Source: Apibacter mensalis (lineage in GTDB: Bacteria > Bacteroidota > Bacteroidia > Flavobacteriales > Weeksellaceae). From it: DNA of 64,000 bases. Of the stretch, positions 50,097 to 56,594 are shown piece by piece. Position numbers and translations under genes: made by a program. Position 1 is the first letter of the stretch. Each line of letters starts with the position of its first letter. Location: the NCBI RefSeq assembly GCF_001418685.1, contig NZ_LIVM01000003.1, positions 158,677 through 222,676 on the forward strand. Direction: 5' to 3'. The notes beneath the pieces are model-generated. The model ran no database searches and was not told the DNA's origin. It saw nothing but the letters and a program-made list of their open reading frames with translations.

Positions 50097-50687
50097 TTAT
50101 TCAAAATAACGAAAAAAAGGATCCGTTGCTAACTCTAACATATTTTTATCTCCTTTACTGTCTCCAAAAGCAAATATTTTGATAAATTTAGCTAATTGAA
50201 TTTCACTAATAATTCTAACTGCTTTCTGTTCATAATTACAATTAGGTGTTGCAAATTTTCCGGTAAAAACTTCATTAATAAATTCTGCTTCGGTAGAAAT
50301 CAAACGTAACCCTAAATATTTTGCAAAGGGTTCAACCCATAGGTCAAGAGAAGCAGTAACGACGTATTTATTAGGTTCGTTCGACAATGCTCGTATATAT
50401 TCTAATGCTTTAGGTCTAATAAGGGTGTTTTTCCTACATTCAAAATAATATTGAACTAATTTCTTTATTTCTGAACGTGTTTTACCCTTTAGAAATTGAG
50501 AAATAAATCTTTGTTTAATTTTTCCTGCATCAAATATTTTGAATCTTACTAATATAAATAAAGGAATAAATTTTATGAAAATTTTCTTATACTTGAGAGG
50601 AAAAGAAACTTGTAAAAAGTCGAATAAGGTGTCTTTGTTTGTTATGGTTCCATCAAAATCAAATAAATATAAACAATTATTTTCCAT
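50097..50687 (-). CDS. HAD-IB family phosphatase of the arabinofuranosyl-lipid operon
   Basis: 196 residues. HAD motif I is LYLFDFDGTITNKDTLFDF (~7-25), motif II VVTASLDLWVEP (~108-119), motif IV FAFGDSKGDKNMLELA (~172-187). The helical N-terminal cap is typical of HAD-IB. It overlaps the GT-C gene by 11 bases and ends the operon. A UbiA-type transferase makes a 5'-phosphorylated lipid-ribose that needs dephosphorylation before epimerisation, so this enzyme is a good candidate for that step. In mycobacteria the proposed enzyme is of the PAP2 family instead. The role here is inferred from context. Confidence 0.8.
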   Translation of the reverse strand: MENNCLYLFDFDGTITNKDTLFDFLQVSFPLKYKKIFIKFIPLFILVRFKIFDAGKIKQRFISQFLKGKTRSEIKKLVQYYFECRKNTLIRPKALEYIRALSNEPNKYVVTASLDLWVEPFAKYLGLRLISTEAEFINEVFTGKFATPNCNYEQKAVRIISEIQLAKFIKIFAFGDSKGDKNMLELATDPFFRYFE

Positions 50688-52356
50688 CTTTTTTAATAAA
50701 ATAATATTTTTGAAATAAATAATAATTCTGCTTATCTTTTTCGAAATCTTCTATCGAAATATTCCGTGCATTTATCCCATATTCCTTAAAATAAAATTCC
50801 TCACTGTCATAATCAACTTTTATGGGAATTATTTTATCACCAAAACACTTTTTTAACATAGTTAAACATTTTCTTTTTTCGTAACTATTATATATTGTTT
50901 TACTATAATTATATCCACCAATTATAAAAGTCATAATTACAACTAAAACCAAACTAATTTGGCTAATAACTTTTAGTATTGCATTACCCAAATAATAACT
51001 TACAAAAAAAATAAAAATAGGAAAAATCCATAATTGAGGTATAAAACGAGCCCACCACGCCCCTTGTATGAAGGGAATAATACTAAAAAAAATAAATAGA
51101 GTAAATAATATTATTAAGTTCATCTGATCTTTTTTTAAATAAAAAAACATCGTAATAAACAAAATAATTGCAACAATGAAAAATCCACTAAACCAGAACC
51201 CCAATCCTGAAAGTCTGGCACAAGCAATAGATGAATATTTTATCTCATAAAATTTAAAGGAAAATGGTATTTTAAACTCTTCAATATTTTCATTTATTGT
51301 GTTATTTGACCAAGAATGTGGTGCATGATTAACCCTATAGAAAAGAGATTTAAAAGCCGCAATGATTGATAAATTTCCTTTCAAAGATGGAGGTCTTTGA
51401 TGCTCAATAATATCAATTTTATTTTTTCCAACAACAGGATATATAGGATTTCCTTTTCTAAGTAAATTTTCTCCAAAAGGGTACCATGAAACAATTCCTA
51501 TCATTATTCCTGATACTATTAATAATTTAAAATTATGTTTAATTTCTTTAATCCTTTTCGCACTTAATAAGTACATAAAGTAAAAAAAGAACAGGCATAT
51601 TACTAAAACAAATGACGTCAACTTTATATTAACAAATAATACAATTATCATTAGTAATGTTAAGTCTATGTAAGGCCACTTCTTATCAAAGGATTTTAAT
51701 ATTAAAAGTGATAAACATATTAATAATGACAAGTAAATTATACCATCTACATAAAAGGTAAATATTTGATTAATTACAATAGGATTAACATGTAAAAACA
51801 AGGTAAATACTATTGAAAATATATTTCTGTAAAATATTTTCTTGATACTTAAGTATGTAAAACTTAAAGATGATAATAAAAATAAAAAATTAATAATTTT
51901 AGAAGATTCTATATTACCCGTTAGACTGTACACAGAATATTGCGAAAATTCTATTCCTTTTACATAATGATTATATACATATTGAAATGGAATATTCTTT
52001 GTCATTTCTTCATGTATTGGATTCCATTTTTTACTTATTTCCAAAATAATACCTTTATGGTAAAGCATGCCGTCCTGACTAAAATCAATCATAAAGCTAT
52101 TGATTAATAATGTTGTTAATATAATAGCAATAAAAAATAGCATAATACCATTTACTTTGCTTATTGGAAATTTAAATAAGGCTAATAAATATGATATAAG
52201 TATGGATAATGGAAAAACAAATAAGACAAACTTTAACTTAAAGATTAAACATAAATCTATAAATAAAAAGTTAAAAAATAAAGTTGATATACATAAAAAA
52301 CCAGTTAAATATATATCAATTTGTTTAAAAGAAAAATATGATATAATGTTTTTCAT
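50677..52356 (-). CDS. GT-C-like polytopic membrane protein, candidate arabinofuranosyltransferase
   Basis: 559 residues with 11-13 transmembrane segments. The first large periplasmic loop contains FSQDGMLYHKGIILEISKKW (~91-110), with an acidic residue and Tyr-His as in GT-C sugar transferases that use lipid-phosphate donors. A soluble C-terminal tail (~480-559) follows. In an operon that makes a lipid-linked pentose, it may transfer that sugar to an outer-surface glycan or protein. Family membership is inferred from topology and motif, not recognised directly. It overlaps the HAD gene by 11 bases and follows the SDR by 19. Confidence 0.65.
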   Translation of the reverse strand: MKNIISYFSFKQIDIYLTGFLCISTLFFNFLFIDLCLIFKLKFVLFVFPLSILISYLLALFKFPISKVNGIMLFFIAIILTTLLINSFMIDFSQDGMLYHKGIILEISKKWNPIHEEMTKNIPFQYVYNHYVKGIEFSQYSVYSLTGNIESSKIINFLFLLSSLSFTYLSIKKIFYRNIFSIVFTLFLHVNPIVINQIFTFYVDGIIYLSLLICLSLLILKSFDKKWPYIDLTLLMIIVLFVNIKLTSFVLVICLFFFYFMYLLSAKRIKEIKHNFKLLIVSGIMIGIVSWYPFGENLLRKGNPIYPVVGKNKIDIIEHQRPPSLKGNLSIIAAFKSLFYRVNHAPHSWSNNTINENIEEFKIPFSFKFYEIKYSSIACARLSGLGFWFSGFFIVAIILFITMFFYLKKDQMNLIILFTLFIFFSIIPFIQGAWWARFIPQLWIFPIFIFFVSYYLGNAILKVISQISLVLVVIMTFIIGGYNYSKTIYNSYEKRKCLTMLKKCFGDKIIPIKVDYDSEEFYFKEYGINARNISIEDFEKDKQNYYLFQKYYFIKKDGK

Positions 52357-52375
52357 TTGTTTAACATATCATAAA

Positions 52376-53104
52376 TTACATTTTTAATTTTTTAAATATA
52401 AATTCCGGAATATTCTTTACTACAATCATTATGTATCTCCAGATCCCAGTAATATATACTTTATTTTTTTTCTTCTTATATGCTTTATAAATTAGGTCAG
52501 CAGCTTTGGACGGTGAAGAAGTCAACAGCTCAGGTAAATCCATTTTTAAGGTCATCTTGGTATTCATAAAACCGGGAACAACCGTCATAACATGAACATT
52601 TTTATGATAAAGATAATTACGTAAACCATCTAAATAAACCATAAATCCCGCTTTTGAACTTCCATATATAAAATTACTTTGTCTACCACGAAGTCCGGCA
52701 ACTGATGATAATCCAATTATAGTTCCGGATTTATTATTTTCAAACTTTTGTGCAAAATAATTTATTAATGGAACCAGATTGGCGTAATTAATAGTAAGGA
52801 TTTTTTGTGTATTAATCTCATCGTATAATCCCTCTTCTGTATTTTTACCTAAAAAGCCTATTGCACAAAACAAGAGATCTGAATCGATTTTATCAAATAC
52901 AGAATAATCAAAATCTCGGGTTAGATCAAAATTTATAATCTCTGAATCTTGTTCAAACTTTACTAAGATATGCTTTGACAATCTTTGGGTTTCTTCTGGA
53001 TTTGAAGTTATTAAGTATATTTTGGGATACCGGTTTTTATTTTCAAATAATAATTTATTGATGAATGCTTGAGAAATATCTGAAGTTGCTCCTAGAATTA
53101 TCAT
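52376..53104 (-). CDS. SDR oxidoreductase, DprE2-like (decaprenylphospho-2-keto-pentose reductase)
   Basis: 242 residues, Rossmann short-chain dehydrogenase. The nucleotide loop is IILGATSDISQAFINKLL (~2-19), the catalytic Ser is in IGLSSVAGLRG (~135), and the YxxxK motif is NFIYGSSKAGFMVYLDG (~150). VVPGFMNTKM matches the PG motif. A C-terminal hydrophobic helix (IWRYIMIVVKNIPEF) resembles DprE2. Together with a DprE1-like FAD oxidase two genes upstream it would reduce the 2'-keto intermediate, completing epimerisation of lipid-phospho-ribose to arabinose with NAD(P)H. Confidence 0.85.
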   Translation of the reverse strand: MIILGATSDISQAFINKLLFENKNRYPKIYLITSNPEETQRLSKHILVKFEQDSEIINFDLTRDFDYSVFDKIDSDLLFCAIGFLGKNTEEGLYDEINTQKILTINYANLVPLINYFAQKFENNKSGTIIGLSSVAGLRGRQSNFIYGSSKAGFMVYLDGLRNYLYHKNVHVMTVVPGFMNTKMTLKMDLPELLTSSPSKAADLIYKAYKKKKNKVYITGIWRYIMIVVKNIPEFIFKKLKM

Positions 53105-53109
53105 TTTAT

Positions 53110-54398
53110 TTAAGAATTGTATAATATTAAACTTTTATTTATAATTGTATTGTCTTTTAGGGTGTATTTAATATCTGGATTAATTGATCTGACAATATTA
53201 GCATTTATATAGCCTGATTGCAAATAAGGATGAATATATTCTATCTTTTTATTTAGTAACGGAACACTATAAGCGGTATCACTTAAAAAATATTTCAGAT
53301 TTTTTCTTTCTTTAAAAACCTTCATCACCCTTAGTCTGTAGGATAGATAATTTACAGGAGATTTTAGTAGATACATGGTTTTAATCACCAAAAATAAAAT
53401 GGTAATTATAAAAATATAATATAATTTATTTAAATATATTTTAAAAAATAATATTAAAAACGAAAAATAAAAACAAAAAAATGTCGGAGCCAACATTTTT
53501 GTGTTTAAAGATTCTATTCCCTGCGTATATTCTGAATCAAACATCCAAGTAAAATATACACATGCAATGGTAAGTAACAATTGATTAAATGAATTTATCT
53601 TAGCATTAAATGACACTCGGTAAAACCAAACATAGGACATTAGAAAAAATAAGCCTATAAGTACTATTCCTATCATTATAAAAAAAATTATGGATACCGA
53701 TTCAAGTATTTTAATTGAAAATATAGGATTAACAACACTTAATGTTCCTAATAAATTCTCTAGGGTGTATTTCCCTATATTGTCCAACGCGGGTGCAAAT
53801 CTATGTACACTCAAAAAACTTCCCAATCCAATGTAATTATAGAGTAAATATATGTATATGCTTAACGAAGATAATAATAAATAATAAAAATAATTCTTGG
53901 ATATAAGCTTATATCTTAAAGTATAATAGAAAAAGTAAATTAATATAACTACAAGACCATATATGCTAATGTATCTTACCACAGTTAGATATACCGTAAC
54001 TATAACTACCGAAATATAATTTTGAATCTTAGTTCGTTTTCAGTTAAAAATTTACTCAAATAATAAATTAAAAATTTAAATGTAACTAATATTGCTGTTT
54101 CTTTAAAATAAAACTTTTTAACACAGGAAAAGAACATAATAACTACAAAACTTAAACAACTAATAAATCGTTAACTGAAATAAAATTCGTTTGAAAATAA
54201 ACATCAAATTTTTAATAATATAGGATCTCCTATAGGAAATAAATTAATTTTACAATTCGGAATATCTTTAGCTATTTCAATGCAAGAAATCGTTTTAGAA
54301 GTAATACTATCATATGGCCTCAATAAAGGTATTATAGCGATGTTTAAAAGTGAAATTATGATGAGAATCCAATATTTTATTATTTTATAATCAGTCAC
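53110..54398 (-). pseudogene. Frameshifted polytopic membrane protein, probable glycosyltransferase
   Basis: The intact gene would begin at 54398 (MTDYKIIKYWILIIISLLNI). That frame stops at 54204 after FPIGDPILLKI. Downstream another frame carries FVVIMFFSCVKKFYFKETAI, then LVTFKFLIYYLSKFLTEN and ELRFKI, and stops near 54005. A third frame resumes with NYISVVIVTVYLTVVRYISI and runs 290 residues to 53110 through 7-8 transmembrane segments. At least two indels are therefore needed to restore one ~430-residue protein. It lies between the DprE1-like and DprE2-like genes with 2-5 base spacing, so it was once part of that operon. The 3' piece could be translated alone, but the N-terminal catalytic part would be lost. 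Confidence 0.8.
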
Positions 54399-54400
54399 TA

Positions 54401-55726
54401 TTAAGATAAATAATTATCGATTCTCTTTTGTTGTAAAGAGTCAAATTTACCTGTTTCGGGAACTTTTACATAATCTATAAGAGTTTTTTTTGACATGGAA
54501 TCTTTTGCTAAATAAATTCTTCCCCCATAATGTTCTACTATTTCATCCAATTCCTTAACTAAAAAGGATAATTTTTTATTGATTTTAAAATCTAATGCTA
54601 AGCTGTATCCATCTATAGGAAATGAATTATGAGCTTTTAAATCACCTTTTTTATATAATTTTAAAACAGCAAGGAAAGAACCTTGACCGCTTTTTGCTAT
54701 TGTTTTTAAAATTTCTGTCATCCCCTCTTTACCAACCTTTTTAGGAATTATAAATTGATATTGAATAAATCCATTTCTACCATAGATCCTATTCCAATTA
54801 TTAATAGCATCCAGTGGGTAGAAAAAAGTATCATAGTCAACTATATTACTTACAATTTTTTTTCTTTGTTTAAAATAATATAAAAAATTAAATGCCTTTA
54901 CTGACCATGTATTCAATATAAATGAGGGAAAATCAAAAGGAACATTTAATTTAAATTTTTTCTTAGGTTGCAATGGTTTTCCTTTCCATTGGGTAGGTAA
55001 TTCTGACAAGGTAGCATGCTCCCCCACCATCAATATAGATCTTCCCATTCGTTTGCCTTTTTGCAAGCAATCAATCCACGCAACACTATAGGTCCAGTTT
55101 TCACATTCTTCGAAAAATTTAAATATTTCTTCAAGGTTTTCTGCTTTTAAAACCTTTTGTTTGATATAAGCGGTCTGTATTCTTTTTAAAGTAAATTTAG
55201 CAGAAATTATGACTCCTGTTAACCCCATGCCTCCAATAGTATTCCAAAATAAATCCGAATTTTCTTCACGTGAACATTTTTTTATTTCACCATCTTGGGT
55301 AATTATATTAAAATTAACAAGATAATCTCCAAAACAACCTTCTGAATGATTATTTTTTCCATGAACATTGGCCCCTATAGCACCTCCAACAGTTATTAAT
55401 TTAGTTCCGGGTGTTACGGGTAAAAAATAACCTTCCGGAACAATTACATCAAGAATATCAGACAATATAACTCCGGATTCACATTCAAAAACACCCTTTT
55501 CCCTATCAAAAGATAGAAACTTATTTAATCGTAATGTAGATAAAATGTTATCACTATTTAATGAATTATCACCATAGGACCTTCCATTTCCTCTAGCAAT
55601 AATAGAATTGCTTTTTTTTATTATTTTTTCTATTTCCTTTAAGTCTGATGTTACATGAAAATTAGTTTTAACTACCGGATACTTTCCCCAGTTTGTTACA
55701 TTTTTTTTATTTTCAGTATCATTCAT
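54401..55726 (-). CDS. FAD-dependent DprE1-like decaprenylphosphoryl-ribose oxidase
   Basis: 441 residues, VAO-type FAD domain. FAD-binding segments are SIIARGNGRSYGDNSLNSD (~42-60) and PVTPGTKLITVGGAIGANVH (~103-122), with GKNNHSEGCFGD following. The C-terminal RIYLAKDSMSKKT holds the Lys equivalent to Lys418 of the mycobacterial enzyme. In the substrate pocket, where the mycobacterial protein has Cys387 (GWNxCVDF-like), this one reads GYSLALDF, so the Cys is Ala. It would oxidise C2 of polyprenylphospho-ribose. It follows the UbiA-like gene by four bases. Confidence 0.9.
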   Translation of the reverse strand: MNDTENKKNVTNWGKYPVVKTNFHVTSDLKEIEKIIKKSNSIIARGNGRSYGDNSLNSDNILSTLRLNKFLSFDREKGVFECESGVILSDILDVIVPEGYFLPVTPGTKLITVGGAIGANVHGKNNHSEGCFGDYLVNFNIITQDGEIKKCSREENSDLFWNTIGGMGLTGVIISAKFTLKRIQTAYIKQKVLKAENLEEIFKFFEECENWTYSVAWIDCLQKGKRMGRSILMVGEHATLSELPTQWKGKPLQPKKKFKLNVPFDFPSFILNTWSVKAFNFLYYFKQRKKIVSNIVDYDTFFYPLDAINNWNRIYGRNGFIQYQFIIPKKVGKEGMTEILKTIAKSGQGSFLAVLKLYKKGDLKAHNSFPIDGYSLALDFKINKKLSFLVKELDEIVEHYGGRIYLAKDSMSKKTLIDYVKVPETGKFDSLQQKRIDNYLS

Positions 55727-55730
55727 AATT

Positions 55731-56594
55731 TTAATTTAAATATTTAAGAACAAAAATCATTGCTAACCAAGCTGCTAAATCTATTTGAAGAAATAAATCT
55801 TTATATAGAACTTTTGTAGGAGATTCAGTTTTATTATATACAAAGGTTAATTGTAAATATCTTAGAATGCCTATTACTACAAATAAAGCAGTATATACTA
55901 TATAGTCATGGAAATTCTTTTTTATCACAGGATCTAATGTATACATAATGTAACACATTATAAAACATGTTGAAACAACTGTAATCGAAATATCTACCAA
56001 TTGAAGATTATATCCATCTAATGCTTTTCTTGTTTGACCCGTTAATTGTACGTTTACCAATTCCCCCCTTCTTTTGCCTAAAGCCAGAACCAAGGCTAAA
56101 AAAAAGGTAACTAAAACTGCCCAAACAGATATGGGTAATCCTGTTGAAAAACCACCCATATAAATTCTTAGCAAAAAACCTATTGAAATAATTACTACAT
56201 CTATAATTGCAATATGCTTTAATTTAAAACTATAAGCTAAATTCATTATAAAGTAAAGAGTTATGATTAATATTACTCCCCATGAATGAATAATCAAGCC
56301 CATAAAATAGGCAGCAATGATTAAAAGCAGAAAAACAATAAATGCTTGATTAACTTTTATTTTTCCAGCTGCTAAAGGCCTATTTTTTTTTTCAGGATGC
56401 ATTTTATCCTTTTCAATATCTGTACAATCGTTAATTATATATATGGAACTTGCTATGAATGAAAACGAAAAAAAGGCAATTATTGAATTCAATACTAAAT
56501 GTAAATCCAATAATTTACCTGCAAAAAAAATAGGAAGGAATACAAAAATGTTTTTAAACCATTGCTTGATTCTTATTAACCTTAAATAATCCAC
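55731..56594 (-). CDS. UbiA-family prenyltransferase, polyprenyl-phosphate 5-phosphoribosyltransferase-like
   Basis: 287 residues, about eight transmembrane segments. The first Asp motif is YIINDCTDIEKDKMHPEKKN (~53-72), with the NDxxDxxxD pattern. RPLAAGKIKV and a second Asp-rich loop (GELVNVQLTGQTRKALDGY) follow. RxIRIKQWFKNIFVFLPIFFAGK at the start (RLIRIKQWFKNIFVFLPIF) is characteristic of the Rv3806c-type branch rather than MenA or UbiA. That enzyme puts phosphoribose from PRPP onto polyprenyl phosphate. It is the first gene of the six-gene glycolipid operon, 85 bases after rnhB. Confidence 0.88.
   Translation of the reverse strand: MDYLRLIRIKQWFKNIFVFLPIFFAGKLLDLHLVLNSIIAFFSFSFIASSIYIINDCTDIEKDKMHPEKKNRPLAAGKIKVNQAFIVFLLLIIAAYFMGLIIHSWGVILIITLYFIMNLAYSFKLKHIAIIDVVIISIGFLLRIYMGGFSTGLPISVWAVLVTFFLALVLALGKRRGELVNVQLTGQTRKALDGYNLQLVDISITVVSTCFIMCYIMYTLDPVIKKNFHDYIVYTALFVVIGILRYLQLTFVYNKTESPTKVLYKDLFLQIDLAAWLAMIFVLKYLN

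Follow-up and report, generated by a model that had tools for sequence, protein, structure and literature searches.

An operon on the minus strand of the 64,000-nucleotide stretch of contig NZ_LIVM01000003.1 that was analysed here (the window), at 50097-56594, encodes a UbiA-family phosphoribosyltransferase, a DprE1-like oxidase, a DprE2-like reductase and a HAD phosphatase. Judged by homology, this conserved four-enzyme core probably makes polyprenyl-phospho-D-arabinofuranose from phosphoribosyl pyrophosphate (PRPP), and a membrane protein of the same operon with a predicted GT-C fold would transfer the sugar at the outer face of the inner membrane. The organism belongs to Apibacter (Weeksellaceae), the nearest named relatives being Apibacter. 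The mycobacterial wall is the best-known setting of D-arabinofuranose, and DprE1 is a drug target there. The original prediction for this DNA had described a mycobacterial-type lipid-linked arabinofuranose pathway. The enzyme set up to the lipid donor stood, while "mycobacterial-type" proved too narrow, because the phosphatase is of the HAD type and the scheme corresponds to that of published pentofuranose side-chain systems. The reading also had to change because the core is, by its distribution, a trait of the Weeksellaceae that occurs in other phyla as well, and because its membrane-protein genes are exchangeable.

In the proposed pathway, the UbiA protein would couple ribose-5-phosphate from PRPP to polyprenyl phosphate, and the HAD protein would take off the 5-phosphate of the product. 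The DprE1-like oxidase would yield a 2-keto sugar, which the DprE2-like reductase would convert to D-arabinofuranose. An unlinked flippase would move the lipid-linked sugar across the membrane, and the GT-C protein would finally attach the sugar to a glycan or glycoprotein of the cell surface. The block itself contains no MATE flippase gene (no genome-wide MATE search was made), and one candidate for the flippase is a GtrA-like protein, which is encoded on another contig of the same genome.

Core enzymes

The UbiA protein scored above the cut-offs of two NCBIfam models of decaprenyl-phosphate phosphoribosyltransferase, NF008977 (238.2 bits, cut-off 234) and NF008978 (209.1, cut-off 207), and below that of NF008976 (163.6 versus 474), and its best PDB chain was the phosphoribosyltransferase 8j8j (8.7e-38). 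It has nine hydrophobic windows and carries NDCTDIEKD at residue 55, which aligns with 8j8j and fits NDxxDxxxD, which we take to be the aspartate motif of UbiA proteins. The HAD protein matched PF12710 (8.1e-24) and exceeded the cut-off of TIGR01488 (71.7, cut-off 45), while remaining under that of TIGR01490 (93.1, cut-off 98.3).

The oxidase reached 401.7 bits with the DprE1 model NF053785, under its cut-off of 500, with the next family at 63.7; its best PDB chain was DprE1 4aut (1.6e-80, residues 8-413), and the first chain other than DprE1 followed at 3e-12. The short-chain dehydrogenase/reductase (SDR) scored 149.3 bits with the DprE2 model NF053786, under its cut-off of 250, and was outscored there by a general SDR model (219.3, itself under its cut-off of 267); its best PDB chain was DprE2 21gq_C (3.1e-23), followed by the next chain at 2.4e-09. 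Because both proteins score under the equivalog cut-offs, they are called DprE1-like and DprE2-like here. As well, a Bacteroidetes metagenome-assembled genome (MAG) carries homologues of DprE1 and DprE2 fused into a single 673-aa reading frame (L055:9989-12010; residues 7-414 and 439-673), both halves of which are also under the equivalog cut-offs.

In the oxidase tree, which contains no mycobacterial row, the window's protein groups with DprE1 proteins and lies far from the FAD paralogue of its own genome. This paralogue, a weak match (1.5e-6), was the only further one in the genome searched (2.33 Mb, 42 contigs), and no second DprE1 was found there. The lysine at the position of Mycobacterium tuberculosis Lys418, presumably the active-site lysine of that enzyme, is kept in 44/44 DprE1 rows. 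At the position of Cys387, which we take to be the target of covalent inhibitors and not required for catalysis, alanine occurs in 41 of the 44 rows, threonine in three and cysteine in none.

The scores of the oxidase and the SDR under their equivalog cut-offs would also suit a core whose lipid-linked pentofuranose product is not D-arabinofuranose, either because another epimer forms or because the enzymes act on another lipid-linked sugar, and auxiliary epimerases are described as diversifying such systems in the main text of Kelly et al. 2024 (PMC11127046). We consider this quite unlikely, since the best PDB matches are DprE1 and DprE2, the lysine at the Lys418 position is kept throughout, and the xylofuranose epimerase described in that text consists of one SDR with no accompanying oxidase (PMC11127046).

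Operon structure and membrane proteins

All six features of the operon were recovered on the reverse strand at the positions and in the order originally given (Table 1), and the identities proposed for the four enzyme genes agreed with their model or structure matches. The tight spacing was borne out as well: 4 nt lie between the UbiA and DprE1-like genes, 5 nt between the broken open reading frame and the DprE2-like gene, and 19 nt between the latter and the gene of the 559-aa protein, which overlaps the HAD gene by 11 nt, while 418 nt of the decayed gene separate the DprE1-like gene from the longest surviving frame of that decayed gene. An RNase HII gene lies 85 nt upstream of the operon on the same strand. 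The promoter scan remained close to shuffled sequences (82 found versus a mean of 74.0, standard deviation 10.6), and no clear end of the operon emerged from the terminator scan (6 found versus a mean of 3.3, standard deviation 1.9).

Table 1. Features of the predicted arabinofuranose operon (window positions).
Feature	Position	Strand	Evidence
UbiA-family polyprenyl-phosphate phosphoribosyltransferase (predicted first step)	55731..56594	-	NF008977, NF008978; PDB 8j8j; motif
DprE1-like FAD oxidase	54401..55726	-	NF053785; PDB 4aut; tree
Decayed membrane-protein gene, putative GT-C (longest surviving frame 53110-53982)	53110..54400	-	Intact L098 homologue
DprE2-like short-chain reductase	52376..53104	-	NF053786; PDB 21gq_C; LGATSDISQA and YxxxK motifs
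559-aa membrane protein, predicted GT-C fold; sole intact transferase candidate of the operon	50677..52356	-	
HAD-IB phosphatase, predicted remover of the 5-phosphate from the UbiA product	50097..50687	-	PF12710; TIGR01488

The broken membrane-protein gene between the DprE1-like and DprE2-like genes, noted as such in the original prediction, is a real pseudogene. An intact 465-aa homologue from the nearest relative, L098, matches it in two frames with 65% and 58% identity, and stop codons were counted inside both frame matches. Intact homologues are also present in L034, L035 and L036, while only the two ends of the counterpart are left in L099 and a C-terminal scrap in L032, whose block is also without a transferase gene. 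The idea that the break stems from a sequencing error was rejected on account of the change of frame together with the stops, and of the remnants in L099 and L032.

The intact 559-aa protein has a predicted fold common to GT-C enzymes, as had been suggested. Searches of its sequence against Pfam, NCBIfam and PDB led to no family, its identity to ArnT is at most 10%, and the fold is silent on donor and acceptor. A second member of this GT-C family is encoded elsewhere in the same genome (G000:C12:30834-32369, L125) and is common to G081 and G071. In Arenibacter, a 395-aa membrane-like protein (L053:12045-13232) lies between DprE2 and HAD, which is the slot of the window's 559-aa gene. Within Apibacter, the membrane-protein genes are exchangeable and not fixed members of the block, and the GT-C slots turn over; the window strain pairs a decayed putative GT-C gene with an intact one of another kind.

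The four core genes are intact and under purifying selection. Between the window and L098, the ratio of nonsynonymous to synonymous divergence (dN/dS) is 0.061-0.105 for the UbiA, DprE1-like, DprE2-like and HAD genes and the neighbouring RNase HII gene, values that are rough because dS is 0.72-0.99 for the four core genes and up to 1.09 with RNase HII. The pathway might still be a relic in this strain, with the donor-using transferase gone and the core on its way out, as could be argued from the decayed gene, from the transferase-less block of L032 and from the window's own genome, in which no gene of the AftB-like family described below was found. Given the constraint on the four core genes and the different intact GT-C-fold gene that overlaps the HAD gene in the same block, this is very unlikely.

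Distribution of the core

DprE1 was found in 170/197 Weeksellaceae genomes, covering 24 of the 33 genera, and UbiA in 174/194. When the two were compared in 194 genomes, both were present in 166, DprE1 only in one, UbiA only in eight and neither in 19; this comparison takes the three genomes missing from the UbiA and AftB-like searches as G194-G196, and all genome counts treat related genomes as separate, with no correction for kinship. In a sample of the phylum, 82/395 genomes had DprE1, and none of these 82 was labelled as belonging to the same order outside the family of the window. Even so, the core is present in Arenibacter (L053), which bears the label Flavobacteriaceae. DprE1 is also present in other phyla, for instance at four Actinomycetota loci (L067-L070). 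As for the neighbourhood comparison that had been suggested, tblastn found all of UbiA, DprE1, DprE2 and HAD in 24 of the 43 named loci, 21 of them in the window's order, with the HAD matches of L069 and L070 being weak (23-24% identity). On these homology searches, the UbiA-DprE1-DprE2-HAD core is a family trait of the Weeksellaceae.

The same distribution bears on the origin of the core. In the oxidase tree, from which two of the 43 loci (L072 and L073) were dropped for low coverage, the window falls within a starred clade (100/99) that takes in 23 of the 45 rows: 19 carry the label Bacteroidota, one (Pelagicoccus) that of Verrucomicrobiota and three no label. That the core was recently acquired from an actinobacterium might be suggested by the nearest known characterised homologues, which are mycobacterial, and by the DprE1 genes of the Actinomycetota loci. 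This was rejected as extremely unlikely, since the window lies in this mainly Bacteroidota clade, the four Actinomycetota rows (none a mycobacterium) lie outside it and DprE1 is spread across the family. An older transfer into the ancestor of the Weeksellaceae may have taken place.

Two further loci were noted in this context. The Pelagicoccus DprE1 (L056:9992-11311) sits inside the Weeksellaceae-side clade and is a candidate for horizontal transfer, and a contig labelled as a Prevotellaceae MAG (L038:1056-4667) carries an Apibacter-like DprE1 (71%) in the order DprE1-DprE2-UbiA-HAD, pointing to either transfer or mis-binning.

At both loci read from the eight genomes with UbiA only, a UbiA-HAD pair is present without DprE1 and DprE2 (L097:7889-9383 and L108:8514-10031), in the same neighbourhood where L039, L041, L047 and L103 carry UbiA-DprE1-DprE2-HAD. 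DprE1 is absent from both genomes at an E value of 1e-40, and DprE2 is absent at both loci, the search for it covering the loci only. The UbiA protein of L097 is above both decaprenyl-phosphate phosphoribosyltransferase cut-offs (237.0 against 234 and 214.7 against 207), and that of L108 above one of the two (208.6 against 207; 224, under 234). HAD thus goes with UbiA even without the DprE genes, which fits a phosphatase acting between UbiA and the epimerase pair. The two loci are likely a natural ribose/arabinose switch, in which a ribofuranose version of the pathway would operate. HAD-UbiA fusions adjoining DprE1 are present in L057, L065 and L074; the fusion model PRK08238 is above its cut-off in all three and the Pfam HAD model in two of them. 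Together with the DprE1-DprE2 fusion of L055, these gene fusions agree with HAD being tied to UbiA.

AftB-like proteins and the possible acceptor

Other Weeksellaceae and some Apibacter possess a different GT-C family, whose profile matched only one PDB chain, that of AftB (9dlf_C), in a weak match over about 200 residues. We take AftB to belong to GT89. The structure model of the AftB-like protein was too weak to use. The family was found in 121/194 family genomes, 119 of which are DprE1-positive. In two Apibacter loci (L100:8746-10239 and L101:8591-10150), the AftB-like gene adjoins a tail-specific protease gene near surE, and no detectable trace of such a gene was found at the surE locus of the window's own genome, G081, G071 or G041.

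AftB-like genes occur in two contexts. One is that of exopolysaccharide clusters, as in the Empedobacter group and in L104, L105 and L107. In the other, a gene for a TMEM260-like protein O-mannosyltransferase lies at most 7 kb away, in at least 51 of the 121 cases; among the matches listed, such a neighbour is present in 37/45 genomes of one genus and in 14 of six other genera, while 34 of the 121 have no near copy among the matches listed and 36 of the 121 were not judged. The two genes adjoin at L106:5648-10641, with a one-base overlap, and at L096:9469-14536. The mere presence of TMEM260-like genes is uninformative, as they were found in 192/194 genomes, and only adjacency was therefore used. 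In those genera, and only there, the adjacency weakly supports a glycoprotein acceptor. It is tempting, although rather doubtful, to speculate that O-mannosylated proteins of Weeksellaceae are decorated with D-arabinofuranose, or with D-ribofuranose in the absence of DprE1 and DprE2, by the AftB-like transferase acting together with the TMEM260-like mannosyltransferase whose gene adjoins it in several genera. If so, a whole family of bacteria would share an arabinosylated O-mannosyl glycan.

Comparison with known systems

A family-wide Bacteroidota core of the same predicted chemistry, together with relatives missing just the epimerase pair and transferases that can be exchanged, opens three questions to testing in other bacteria: which phosphatase follows UbiA, which acceptors AftB-like enzymes use, and whether a surface shifts from arabinosylated to ribosylated when DprE1 and DprE2 are lost. 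No family-wide pathway in Weeksellaceae was found among the papers listed by a literature search that left out most subscription papers; the only paper on a related topic that turned up concerns the breakdown of D-arabinan by gut Bacteroidetes (PMC10115798).

According to the main text of Kelly et al. 2024 (PMC11127046), pentofuranose side-chain systems consist of a polyprenyl phosphoribose synthase with a HAD phosphatase, a flippase and a GT-C, with homologues of DprE1/E2 present where arabinofuranose is added, and M. tuberculosis Rv3807c is unrelated to HAD phosphatases. The Apibacter block shares homologues of Rv3806c, DprE1 and DprE2 with the mycobacterial decaprenyl-phospho-arabinose pathway. 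However, its phosphatase is of the HAD type (PF12710), unlike Rv3807c, and the closest published logic, as far as that text describes it, is therefore that of the pentofuranose side-chain systems. In common with these three-component systems, the block has a UbiA-type synthase, a HAD phosphatase, a GT-C (of family GT136 in those systems, here a predicted fold) and homologues of DprE1/E2. It differs from them, as they are described there, in having HAD as a stand-alone protein and no MATE flippase gene, in a core that is spread across a family and is not a serotype gene set, and in GT-C genes that swap within the genus. None of Bacteroid-, Flavobacter-, Chryseobacterium, Elizabethkingia, Arenibacter or Weeksell- occurs in that main text.

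A further parallel is the noeCNHOP operon for Nod-factor arabinosylation, in which, by the published description consulted, noeC, noeH and noeO serve lipid-linked arabinose, with NoeN as the putative phosphatase and NoeP as the transferase (PMC5080398). Its acceptor is a lipo-chitooligomer, and its likeness to the Apibacter block is one of gene content as described there. From the published pentofuranose systems and noeCNHOP, the chemistry predicted for the Apibacter core would thus be of a known kind.

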